Shown: positions 6,628 through 10,891 of the stretch, piece after piece
Layout: each line of letters opens with the position of its first letter
Position numbering within the stretch: the first letter of the stretch is position 1
NCBI GenBank assembly: GCA_947625435.1
Contig: CANQOI010000026.1
Coordinates: forward strand, 1-32,811
Direction: 5' to 3'
Length of the DNA stretch: 32,811 nucleotides
Source of the DNA: an uncultured Clostridia bacterium
GTDB lineage: Bacteria > Bacillota > Clostridia > UBA1212 > UBA1255
Program-made: the position numbers and the translations under genes
Notes under the pieces: generated by a model
Told to the model about the DNA's origin: nothing
What the model saw: the letters and a program-made list of their open reading frames with translations, nothing else
Database searches by the model: none

Positions 6628-7569
6628 TCACGCCTGCTCCAATATGCGCTCTGTTTTATCATTCTGAGCGGGCAGGAGCAGATTGACGCCGCCCTGTACT
6701 ACTTCCGCGTGGAGGGGCAGCTCTCCCGCATACTCGCCGTCGCAGTCAAGGTGGAATTCGCCCGTGCCCTCGGCGGGCATTATCTTAAGGTCCCGCACAT
6801 AGCGGTACTCGACGTATTTGTTGTGAACATGCGTCCCCGTCTGTATCTGTATGAGCAAAGGCAGCACGTTCAGAGGATCCACCTTCTTCACGATGCACAG
6901 ATCCATATATCCGTCGTTTATCTTGGCCTCCGCCCCTATTCTTGAAAAGCCGCCTACGCTCTTTGAATTTGCCAGTATAAAGAAAAATGTCTCTATGATC
7001 TCCCGCTGTCCGTCCATTTCATAAAGAAGAGGCGTGGTGCGGAGCCCGTTCTTAAATACGGTGCCTATTCCATTCGCTATATACGCGGCCTTGCCCAGAT
7101 ATGTCTTGGCCTCTATGCTCACGCTGTGAGCCACATCGGAGAGTATGCCGCCCGCCGCCACATTGAGGAAATACTGCTTTTCGTTAAAACGGCCTATGTC
7201 GGCGGCCACCGCATTGCGATCCTTTATAAGATTGTAAAGGCAGTACGATGTGGGCGATATCCCCACCGAGCTTGCAAAGTCATTCGTTGTGCCGGAAGGC
7301 ATTATGGCAACGGGTATGCCGCTGCCGCTCATATGGAGTCCGGACACTACCTCGTTCACCGTGCCGTCTCCGCCGGCCGCGACTATGAAGTCATATTCCT
7401 CTTTTCGCGCCGCGTACGCCCGTTCTTTGGCGTCGTCCTTGCCCCTTGTGTAAAATACCGACGCTTCCTTTATGACCTTGTCAGTCAGCAGCTCGTGCAT
7501 CGCCTGAAGCGCCTTGGCCTGATTGTTCTGTTTCCCCGATGACGGATTGATTATAAATAATCCTTTCAT
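6628..7569 (-). CDS. Diacylglycerol/lipid kinase family protein (DagK/YegS type)
   Basis: This 313-residue protein has the lipid-kinase catalytic domain: NPSSGK near the N-terminus (residues 8-13), the nucleotide-binding GGDGT at 66-70, and MPSGTTNDFASSVGI at 90-104. Family members phosphorylate diacylglycerol, recycling it into phospholipid synthesis, or related lipids. The ATG at 7569 is preferred over an in-frame GTG at 7578, because GAGG lies 8 nt before the ATG but abuts the GTG. The preceding sigma-like gene stops 10 bp upstream, its stop codon adjoining this ribosome binding site, so the two are coupled. It is the last gene of the cls operon. Confidence 0.93.
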   Translation of the reverse strand: MKGLFIINPSSGKQNNQAKALQAMHELLTDKVIKEASVFYTRGKDDAKERAYAARKEEYDFIVAAGGDGTVNEVVSGLHMSGSGIPVAIMPSGTTNDFASSVGISPTSYCLYNLIKDRNAVAADIGRFNEKQYFLNVAAGGILSDVAHSVSIEAKTYLGKAAYIANGIGTVFKNGLRTTPLLYEMDGQREIIETFFFILANSKSVGGFSRIGAEAKINDGYMDLCIVKKVDPLNVLPLLIQIQTGTHVHNKYVEYRYVRDLKIMPAEGTGEFHLDCDGEYAGELPLHAEVVQGGVNLLLPAQNDKTERILEQA

Positions 7570-7579
7570 GATACTCACC

Positions 7580-9196
7580 TCACTGATATATGCCTGTCAC
7601 ATCCGAAGTACTCAGATCGTATGCGAAAAGCATGCTCTTTCCGCCCGACTTTCCGTCCGAGCAATAGCAGTACACATGCCCGCCCGCCGCATATATATCC
7701 GTTATATAAATATTCTTCTCATTTCCCATTATGTCTGTGAGCTTTTTATTTTCGCCGGAGGAGTCCAGCATATAAAGCGCCGATATGCCGTCCGACTCGC
7801 CCGCATAATATACATTGCCGCCTTCCGCGTAAAATGCCCCGGTCGCCAGTTCCGTTTCATTTCCCTCTTTATCCGTCGCTATCGAAGGCCACACTCTCTT
7901 GAGCTCTTTATTTTCAAGAAAATCATAATATCCGTCAAGCTCCAGTCTGTAGAGCACTATCCTGCCCGACATTTCTTTATAGTCAAAATACAGGTTCCCG
8001 GCGTCCGTCTGCACATTGTATACCTCTTCTATGAATACGCCGTCCACGGAGGGCTCTCCCTTATATTCGGTTATATGGTGCACTCCTTTGCCCACGCCGC
8101 CGGCGAAGAATACATTCCCGCTCTCGTCTATCGCCATATCCACGCAGTAAAGATTGCTGTCCGATGATGTGTCGAGCATGAGTTCGGCGGAGCTCATGTC
8201 CCCTCCGGAGGATGGCAGTCTGTATATGCCGTCGTACGAGGAAAAATACACATATCCGCCGTACAGCGCCAGCGTTGTGCCGGGAGCGTCGCACAGGAGC
8301 GTGCTTTCGAGCGTGTCCGGGTCCATGCGGTACATTTTACCGTCGTTGTAATTTCTGTAGTAAATATATTCCCCGTCGTTTATCATCTCCATGGGGTAGT
8401 CGTCCGATATCCTGACGGTCTCATTCGTGTTCATATCCGTCCTGTAAAATGCCTTGTCCTTCCCCCTGTAATACAGAGCGCCGTTTATCTCGGTCATGGC
8501 CGTTTTGTTGTTGAACTGGAGCAGGACTTCCTCTCCGAGGGCATTTTTGTCTACGTCGCCGCTGTATGTGCCGTTTGCGAGCCTTACTATCATGAAAACG
8601 GCGACCGATATGAACGCTGTGAGCACGATCACGGTGAGGAGCCTTTTATAGCCGTTTGCATTTTTCGCATTCTTTTTATTGTCCGTACCCGGCTCTCCGT
8701 CTTTTTTTTCGCGCGGCGCTTCCGACAGCGCCTTTTCCTTATAGTCGGGGCAGACGGCCTCGGCGTATTTTACGACGGAAGGTATATCGGCGCTCCTGCT
8801 CTTTATGATGCCCGAAACCGCGCTCCTGCGCTTTCCCGTTATGGCGGCGATATCCGATATGCTGAGCTTCGTAAATGCCTTTATGACAGCCTCCGCAGGC
8901 ATTCCCGATATAAGATCGTGCGCTTTTCCCGCATCGCTCCGTTTTGTATTCTCTTTTGCGCACGTCTTATAAAGTATCTCATATATCCAGTATTCCGCAT
9001 TCATTTCCTTTTCGAATGCGGGCGCCAGATCCCTTACCGCGTGAAATGCCTCCGAAGACGCGCTTTCGGCGGCCTCTTTGTCTTTTGTCATTGAGAGGGC
9101 GACGGCGTAGAACGCAGCGCCGTATGTCGCATAAAGCTCGTCAAGCGCCTGTCTGTCTCCCTTTGCCGTCATATTTATCAAAGTTACAGTGTCCAT
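7580..9196 (-). CDS. Sigma-70-like domain fused through one membrane helix to an extracytoplasmic propeller-like domain
   Basis: Residues 1-85 resemble sigma-70 region 2 of ECF factors (GDRQALDELYATYGAAFYAVAL, then ESASSEAFHAV). Residues about 95-133 resemble region 4 with a helix-turn-helix (LSISDIAAITGKRRSAVSGIIK). A charged linker (150-182) leads to one membrane helix at about 186-205, which places the N-terminus inside. Residues 206-538 form repeated 'G.LYYRG...YRTD' and 'DGEYIYYRN...YRMDP' units, like the DUF5050 or propeller-like domains of clostridial surface proteins. The ATG at 9196 has GGAG 6-8 nt upstream and starts 13 bp after cls. I infer a membrane sensor that either acts as a sigma factor itself or has kept only a regulatory role. 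Region 2 is divergent, so promoter recognition is uncertain. No anti-sigma gene is adjacent. Confidence 0.8.
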   Translation of the reverse strand: MDTVTLINMTAKGDRQALDELYATYGAAFYAVALSMTKDKEAAESASSEAFHAVRDLAPAFEKEMNAEYWIYEILYKTCAKENTKRSDAGKAHDLISGMPAEAVIKAFTKLSISDIAAITGKRRSAVSGIIKSRSADIPSVVKYAEAVCPDYKEKALSEAPREKKDGEPGTDNKKNAKNANGYKRLLTVIVLTAFISVAVFMIVRLANGTYSGDVDKNALGEEVLLQFNNKTAMTEINGALYYRGKDKAFYRTDMNTNETVRISDDYPMEMINDGEYIYYRNYNDGKMYRMDPDTLESTLLCDAPGTTLALYGGYVYFSSYDGIYRLPSSGGDMSSAELMLDTSSDSNLYCVDMAIDESGNVFFAGGVGKGVHHITEYKGEPSVDGVFIEEVYNVQTDAGNLYFDYKEMSGRIVLYRLELDGYYDFLENKELKRVWPSIATDKEGNETELATGAFYAEGGNVYYAGESDGISALYMLDSSGENKKLTDIMGNEKNIYITDIYAAGGHVYCYCSDGKSGGKSMLFAYDLSTSDVTGIYQ

Positions 9197-9209: not shown

Positions 9210-10829
9210 TCAAAGCAGCGGCGCTATGAGCTTAAGCACCGACTGCGCGAATTTTACCTTGAGCGGTCGTCTCTCCCACTCATCGGGATCTATCTTCCTG
9301 CAATATCCGAGAGTGGATATGTAATCTTCTTTTATATCGCGTACCGCATCTTCATCGCATATCCATACTCCGTTTTCAAAATGCAGATAGAAGGATCTGA
9401 AATCCATATTGACGGTGCCGACTATGGCGGATTTGTCGTCGCACACCATATTTTTTGCGTGTATGAAGCCCGGCTCGTATTCATATATCTTGACGCCGGC
9501 GCGCATGAGCTCCCCGTAAAATGAATTCGTTACGAGGTAAACGTATTTCTTGTCGGGTATGCCCGGCGTTATTATACGCACATCCACGCCGCTTCTTGCG
9601 GCGATCTTGATAGATGTGAGCATTTCGTTGTCGGGGACGAGATAGGGCGTCGTTATATACACGTATCTTGCGGCCGAATTTATGACCTGCATATACAGGT
9701 ATTCCGCTTCCGTCTCGTCGGGCGTTGTGAGCGGGCCGTCGGCAAAGGGCTGCACGTAACCGGAGGCGTTCTTTATGCCGCGGCAGAATGCGGCGTCCGG
9801 CATATATCCGGAATAGTCCGTATCCGTACTGTGTTTCTTTTTGTTATATGTGGCATATTCCCACATCTGAAGGAACATCACTGTAAAGCTCCACACGCCC
9901 GCCCCCGCGAGCCTTACACCGGAGTCCTTCCAGTGCCCGAAGGCGTCTACCGTGTTGACGTATTCGTCCGCCAGGTTCATGCCGCCCGTATATCCTATAT
10001 TTCCGTCTATGACGCATATCTTCTGGTGGTTCCTGTAATTCAGATAGAAATTGTTGACAATGGGCTTTACTTTATTGAAGGCCGCGGTTTTGATGCCGTG
10101 TTTCTTCGTTTCGGCTTCGAAATCCTTGGGAAGGCACGTAAGGCAGCCGAAATCATCGTACAGTATCCTCACATCCACGCCTTCCGCCGCCTTTTCTTTA
10201 AGAACGGACAATACCTCTCTCCAGAGAGAGCCCTCCGAAAGTATGAAGAATTCCAGAAAGATAAATTTTTCCGCCTTCTTCAGCTCTCCTATGAGCTCCG
10301 GGAACAGCCTGTCCGCCAGCTCATAGTATCTCACTTCCGTTCCGCCGTATAAGGGGAATCCGGCCTTGCGCAGGAAGCGCGATGTGCGCTCGAGCTCCGG
10401 GTATTCCGCGGCGAAGCTCTCATCCGCGCCCGTGACGTGTCCGTACAGAGGCACTGTCATTTCCGATATTATATGCACGCCCTTCTTGACGCGCTTTGGA
10501 TTTCTCCCGCGTCCCCACATCTCGTAAAATATTATGCCGAGCACCGGCACGAGCATTACCGCGGTTATCCACGCTATCTTATACGAAGGGTTCTTGCGGT
10601 TCAGCACTATGCGTATCTCGGCCAGCACCGCCGCTATCTGAAAAAATATGTAAGATGAGATGGCAAAAGCGTTCATGGCGTAGAGCGCCCATATTATAAG
10701 GCCCAGCTGCGCCGCCATGAGTATGATCGCTATTATAAGCTTCCTCAGATTTGCTTTTCTCCTCTTGGGCCGCCTGCGCGACTGTCTGCGCAGTGCTTCA
10801 ATGTCATATTTTTTTTTATTGTCGGCCAC
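9210..10829 (-). CDS. cls: Cardiolipin synthase (phospholipase D family)
   Basis: Cardiolipin synthase joins two phosphatidylglycerol molecules. The 539-residue protein has a basic N-terminus, two to three membrane helices (about 29-50, 56-76, 83-103) and two HKD motifs: H268-x-K270-x4-D275 (NHQKICVID) and H457-x-K459-x4-D464 (IHAKNMVCDD), each followed by the conserved G-G/T-x-N. Length and layout match bacterial Cls of Gram-positives. The start is a GTG at 10829, directly preceded by an in-frame stop, with only a weak GGGG upstream. A strong promoter lies about 30 bp before it, and the sigma-like fusion and lipid kinase follow within 15 bp each. Confidence 0.95.
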   Translation of the reverse strand: MADNKKKYDIEALRRQSRRRPKRRKANLRKLIIAIILMAAQLGLIIWALYAMNAFAISSYIFFQIAAVLAEIRIVLNRKNPSYKIAWITAVMLVPVLGIIFYEMWGRGRNPKRVKKGVHIISEMTVPLYGHVTGADESFAAEYPELERTSRFLRKAGFPLYGGTEVRYYELADRLFPELIGELKKAEKFIFLEFFILSEGSLWREVLSVLKEKAAEGVDVRILYDDFGCLTCLPKDFEAETKKHGIKTAAFNKVKPIVNNFYLNYRNHQKICVIDGNIGYTGGMNLADEYVNTVDAFGHWKDSGVRLAGAGVWSFTVMFLQMWEYATYNKKKHSTDTDYSGYMPDAAFCRGIKNASGYVQPFADGPLTTPDETEAEYLYMQVINSAARYVYITTPYLVPDNEMLTSIKIAARSGVDVRIITPGIPDKKYVYLVTNSFYGELMRAGVKIYEYEPGFIHAKNMVCDDKSAIVGTVNMDFRSFYLHFENGVWICDEDAVRDIKEDYISTLGYCRKIDPDEWERRPLKVKFAQSVLKLIAPLL

Positions 10830-10862: not shown

Positions 10863-10891
10863 ATTATAATTCATTTTACATGATATGTCCA
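10863..10891 (-). promoter_or_regulatory. Promoter of the cls operon
   Basis: The minus strand shows TGGACA (10891-10886), a 17-bp spacer, and TATAAT (10868-10863). This is a near-consensus sigma-A promoter, so cls is not dependent on read-through from ispE. The spacer contains an ATTTTAC 7-mer. Confidence 0.8.

Follow-up and report, generated by a model that had tools for sequence, protein, structure and literature searches.

Fusions of a sigma factor with its anti-sigma factor are already known from a few lineages. The ECF52 proteins of Actinobacteria (SCO4117) contain an ECF sigma factor, an anti-sigma-like part, a transmembrane (TM) helix and an extracytoplasmic domain in one chain (PMC5826349), and IutY of Pseudomonas putida (ECF243) is a sigma factor fused to a membrane anti-sigma factor (PMC8999054). 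In ECF57 proteins, the ECF part is followed by WD40-like C-terminal repeats (PMC8999054). PhyR of Alphaproteobacteria contains a sigma-like domain that has the correct ECF fold and degenerate promoter and core contacts, and it works as a protein switch (PMC8103513). A literature search for DUF5050 together with sigma factors returned nothing relevant.

The gene studied here lies in a 32,811-nucleotide stretch of Clostridia DNA, called the window below. The encoded protein is divided into the following parts.

7580..9196, reverse strand: whole gene, a sigma/anti-sigma/TM/DUF5050 fusion of 538 aa with an ATG start
8939..9196, reverse strand: ECF sigma region 2, residues 1-86 (NCBIfam matches, predicted model, profile and fold comparison)
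8897..8938, reverse strand: shortened linker between sigma2 and sigma4, residues 87-100 (model and spacing comparison)
8798..8896, reverse strand: degenerate sigma region 4 helices, residues 101-133 (model and homologue comparison)
8717..8797, reverse strand: anti-sigma-like helix with a CPDY motif, residues 134-160 (alignment and reciprocal profiles)
8648..8716, reverse strand: basic cytoplasmic linker, residues 161-183 (model confidence low)
8576..8647, reverse strand: single TM helix, residues 184-207 (hydropathy and model)
8501..8575, reverse strand: extracytoplasmic stalk, residues 208-232 (model confidence low)
7583..8500, reverse strand: DUF5050 beta-propeller, residues 233-538 (Pfam, model and Foldseek)

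A first-pass annotation of the DNA had described one membrane helix and about 330 extracytoplasmic residues of propeller-like repeats, and both descriptions hold. Hydropathy places the helix at residues ~186-204 (195-213 in ORF numbering) with a Kyte-Doolittle value of 2.88, the structure model places it at residues 184-207, and ~331 residues follow outside the membrane. DUF5050 (PF16472) is matched at residues 229-502 in the Pfam scan (E 1e-11, 45.1 bits against a cut-off of 27). The C-terminal ~306 residues are predicted to be all-beta with pLDDT mostly above 90, and 3S25, a 7-bladed propeller, ranks second in the Foldseek search with this part. Pfam scans of the fusion protein found no zinc-finger anti-sigma domain, carbohydrate-binding module, RsgI_M or receiver domain.

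The N-terminal part is an ECF (group IV) sigma factor by sequence and fold, with a degenerate sigma4 in the window copy. Residues 5-87 match NCBIfam models of the SigM/SigW type (E 1e-6 to 1e-5). Pfam Sigma70_r2 by itself stays below its cut-off on the window protein, as would be expected if these helices resembled sigma factors by chance, but the agreement of profile, HMM and fold comparisons refutes this explanation, and its probability is negligible. A profile of 26 orthologues finds the solved ECFs SigK (6e-13) and SigW (1.5e-11). An HMM of canonical two-gene ECFs matches 26/26 fused proteins, with E as low as 3e-30 over both domains; on the window copy it gives 5e-13 over region 2, and in the window's genus the match is mainly to this region. 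Region 4 of the window copy is degenerate and is recognised through homologues. In one homologue, L017, Sigma70_r2 is above its cut-off (6.8e-6) and Sigma70_r4_2 is just under its own (5.8e-5).

Structure prediction of the first ~135 residues, which the first-pass annotation had suggested as a check, gives a sigma 2/4 fold with pLDDT 93. The best structural match is SigW in its complex with RsiW (Z 13.9, 138 residues aligned, 4.2 Å), followed by CnrH with CnrY (Z 13.3) and then RpoE with NepR. These top matches are all closed, anti-sigma-bound ECFs, although the closed arrangement in the AlphaFold model may mirror the abundance of such complexes in the PDB. RNA polymerase-bound SigH structures superpose on the model over both domains only at ~29 Å rmsd.

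Between sigma4 and the TM helix, the fused family carries a conserved stretch, LxxDIxxxCPDYWxxI, in which P150 is invariant in 26 homologues; in the model this segment forms a helix at residues 134-148 and a short helix at 153-157. The closest separate ECFs belong to two-gene systems, in which an ECF adjoins a membrane protein whose N-terminal motif resembles KIxxAVxxxVPDVLDSIL. This partner also has a basic linker and a TM helix, and its outer part often contains RsgI_M and PepSY. When a profile of fused residues 134-165 was run against 1344 ORFs, the top matches were the N-termini of ECF-adjacent membrane anti-sigma proteins (best E 1.6e-5). The reverse profile, made from these N-termini, matches fused proteins directly after sigma 4, above background (E 1.7e-7 and 7.6e-6). 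The anti-sigma helix is short, and the window's own copy has no match to the anti-sigma profile and was assigned via homologues. No separate anti-sigma gene adjoins the fusion gene. The earlier remark that no anti-sigma gene lies next to it is thus right about the neighbouring genes, but an equivalent lies inside the protein itself. Sigma part, anti-sigma part, TM helix and outer sensor are all found in one chain, and we are confident that an ECF sigma factor has here become fused to its own membrane anti-sigma factor and sensor.

Intact two-gene relatives show the likely origin of this fusion. In one family of the same class, f57, four intact loci (L151-L154) in four genomes encode an ECF of 188-199 aa adjoining a ~380-aa protein with a PDVW motif, a TM helix and DUF5050. 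Position, motif and topology suggest that this DUF5050 partner is an anti-sigma factor, and the DUF5050 parts are among the best matches. In an unrooted tree, the fused sigma parts form one clade (100/100) that branches beside the f57 two-gene ECFs, and the remaining ECFs are set apart at 88/85. The most economical history would be a single loss, in this order, of the boundary between the genes of an ECF/anti-sigma-DUF5050 pair; as the tree has no root, we infer the direction from two genes to a fusion.

Several other loci were seen in these comparisons. L119 (G205:C58, 802-1882, reverse strand) is a broken two-gene ECF/DUF5050 copy near a masked stretch, with a frameshifted ECF and a truncated partner. 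L138, where an ECF has a DUF5050 protein as its neighbour, was considered as a further two-gene case and rejected: the DUF5050 protein is lipoprotein-like and lies upstream of an ECF/partner pair to which it does not belong. In L116 and L117, the membrane proteins that follow the ECFs have an anti-sigma-like N-terminus of another kind (the L116 partner has 507 aa and no Pfam match). The window's own genome also encodes a canonical two-gene ECF with a 679-aa RsgI_M/PepSY anti-sigma-like protein (L102, G000:C16:9000-26000). Several of its ECF-like proteins, with 520-595 aa (L041, L042, L043, L044, L046 and L049), have a long C-terminal part; they were rejected as further membrane fusions, as the hydropathy scan showed no TM helix. 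In the same genome, at ~2255, 8346 and 14434 of G000:C46 (L043, L045 and L047), two sigma-like proteins of 553 aa that are nearly identical and a third, truncated copy lie ~6 kb apart, which suggests a recent tandem amplification.

The combination of a sigma domain and an extracytoplasmic propeller in a single polypeptide, as described in the first-pass annotation, is borne out. The alignment of 26 full-length proteins contains a single architecture, and this architecture is intact, with no internal stops, in 30/31 genomes of the order and in all 15 of its high-quality genomes, so it is not a product of chance. Among 391 genomes of the class, full-length matches are confined to members of the order. 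Among 299 genomes of the phylum searched at E 1e-30, only the window's own genome has a match, and the other 298 lack one. The order consists of gut and rumen Clostridia. A contig search with the protein by itself found no relative, and a closer alignment gave named close relatives among rumen Clostridia MAGs, including Mageeibacillus sp. UBA1255.

To describe how the sigma part has changed, 26 fused proteins were compared with 19 canonical ECFs. We refer to three region 2.2 positions as the equivalents of D403, Q406 and E407 in the numbering of E. coli sigma70. The Q406 equivalent (the region 2.2 Gln) is lost in 26/26 fused proteins. The D403 equivalent is lost throughout the window's genus and is acidic in 21/21 homologues outside it, and the E407 equivalent is invariant (26/26). 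The spacing between Trp of region 2.3 and Glu of the EIA motif is 67-84 in the 19 comparison ECFs and 84 in SigW and AlgU (21 ECFs in all), but 59-61 in the order and 44 in the window protein. The mean net charge falls from +0.9 to -2.5 in the 2.3 loop, from +3.4 to -0.3 in region 2.4 and from +3.6 to +0.8 in the sigma-4 HTH (p < 1e-4 for each), with some g1 members overlapping the canonical range in the HTH. Neither the region 2.2 core-binding positions nor the promoter-facing segments, which are basic in an ECF, are those expected of group IV sigma factors. Spacing, DNA-facing charge and core-binding positions together suggest that the sigma part has drifted from a working sigma factor, spacing and charge being indirect signs.

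The first-pass annotation had named lack of the sigma 2/4 fold, or of the core-binding surface in all homologues, as what would count against its proposal; the fold is predicted with high confidence, and one acidic core-binding position is invariant. It had also left two alternatives, promoter recognition in the same chain as sensing or a sigma part turned into a non-transcribing regulator, and the drift described above favours the latter. Some core binding may be retained, given the invariant E407 equivalent and the acidic D403 equivalent outside the window's genus.

The changes in sigma 4 bear on whether the protein could be a membrane one-component regulator of the ToxR/CadC type, in which a tethered sigma-4-like HTH binds operator DNA and does not act as a sigma factor. 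The topology of cytoplasmic HTH, TM helix and extracytoplasmic sensor would fit, and one Arg of a sigma-4 helix is kept in 20/21 homologues outside the window's genus. However, sigma 4 is shortened in the window's genus and the window copy no longer has this Arg. At one position of the recognition helix, 25/26 fused proteins carry Glu where canonical ECFs mostly have Lys or Arg, and the best-conserved part is sigma 2 rather than sigma 4. We consider such a regulator improbable.

Outside the window's genus, conservation is highest in region 2 (50%, against 31% for the propeller). Region 2 is therefore under constraint, which is probably exerted by protein binding. The same comparison speaks against the sigma part being a decaying remnant with the propeller as the working part, as does the open frame in all 30 genomes. 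The fast evolution of the window's genus (branch lengths 1.4 and 1.3 in the tree) agrees with decay, but we regard a mere relic as highly improbable.

The neighbouring genes and a promoter-like site are arranged as follows.

9210..10829, reverse strand: cardiolipin synthase (Cls), the upstream neighbour
6628..7578, reverse strand: diacylglycerol kinase (DAGK_cat/YegS_C), the downstream neighbour
10863..10891, reverse strand: housekeeping sigma-A-type promoter-like site TGGACA-17-TATAAT, 5' of the cardiolipin synthase gene (11/12 matches, by pattern only)

Diacylglycerol kinase lies directly downstream of the fusion gene in 21/24 loci, and Cls lies directly upstream in 15/24 (one of them, L090, counted by coordinates). 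The operon with these two enzymes points to membrane-lipid control, although the operon link alone is no proof of a lipid role. By eye, TTG...TATAAT-like sites can be seen 5' of cls in several further genera. A search of the region upstream of cls for a common ECF-type promoter dyad found none that exceeded shuffles.

This promoter arrangement is relevant to another possibility, that the fusion stays inactive while membrane-bound and that a sigma part of unusual promoter specificity is released from it by regulated intramembrane proteolysis (RIP). The closest mechanistic precedents work in this way, as shown for IutY (PMC8999054) and proposed for ECF52 (PMC5826349). The single TM helix with its flexible 25-residue stalk, the strong conservation of region 2 and the retained acidic positions would also suit a released sigma factor. 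On the other hand, the shortened spacing between sigma2 and sigma4 (most pronounced in the window's genus), the lowered positive charge of DNA-facing segments and the absence of the Q406 equivalent from all homologues weigh against it. So does the operon, whose promoter is sigma-A-like and which has no common ECF-type dyad upstream. We consider a released sigma factor somewhat unlikely.

The reading we prefer, by a modest degree of belief, is that the protein is a membrane-tethered sigma/anti-sigma fusion that senses the envelope or its lipids, with an output through protein binding rather than promoter recognition. The outside propeller would sense an envelope or lipid cue, and the TM helix would pass the signal to the sigma/anti-sigma pair in the cytoplasm. 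The helix after sigma 4 may keep sigma2 and sigma4 closed, as in the anti-sigma-bound arrangement. Judging from the drift in sequence, the pair would act through protein binding as a tethered sigma mimic, and the switch may be coupled to the cardiolipin synthase and diacylglycerol kinase of the same operon. Because the DNA-binding parts look worn, the sigma part may not activate genes in the usual way; we slightly favour an output other than classical promoter recognition, and a membrane-tethered protein switch seems more likely than a normal sigma factor. Whether the protein has a role in envelope or lipid homeostasis is evenly balanced in our judgement. More tentatively, the sigma part could be an ECF-fold mimic without transcription activity that has its own anti-sigma helix in the chain and relays the propeller signal by protein binding, and so controls lipid synthesis or titrates another anti-sigma factor.

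If this is correct, the family would represent a route by which a sigma factor turns into a membrane signalling protein. Its distinctive features are the near-universal presence in one Clostridia order, the DUF5050 propeller and the PhyR-like wear of the transcription contacts. Because decay is graded within the order and two-gene relatives exist, this path is testable.

Compared with known systems, the fusion is like ECF52 in having sigma, anti-sigma-like part, TM helix and outer domain in one chain. It is not a member of ECF52 proper, which has a zinc-finger domain, a proline-rich region and a carbohydrate-binding module where the window family has the PDY helix and DUF5050; in addition, ECF52 is restricted to Actinobacteria, and positive autoregulation has been suggested for it. 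IutY differs in serving cell-surface signalling for aerobactin, in having a sigma factor that is active after RIP and in its anti-sigma part and sensor. The propeller-type repeats after the ECF recall ECF57, but a review groups ECF57, with an example from Singulisphaera (Planctomycetes), as regulated by protein interaction and apart from the membrane-fused groups (PMC8999054). PhyR is similar in keeping the ECF fold with degenerate promoter and core contacts; unlike the fusion, it is a soluble response regulator with a receiver domain, has no TM helix or propeller, and binds NepR in trans. The ECF/RsgI_M-PepSY systems of the class, including the one in the window's own genome, share a related ECF, the anti-sigma N-terminal motif and the TM helix, but they are encoded by separate genes with a central RsgI_M domain and PepSY outside; the fusion, with DUF5050 in place of RsgI_M, is not an RsgI_M-type anti-sigma factor. 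The f57 system differs in consisting of two genes, in a sigma part of canonical length and charge, and in the lack of adjoining lipid genes within the flanks seen, yet it has the same parts in the same order, and its sigma parts are the neighbours of the fused ones in the tree.
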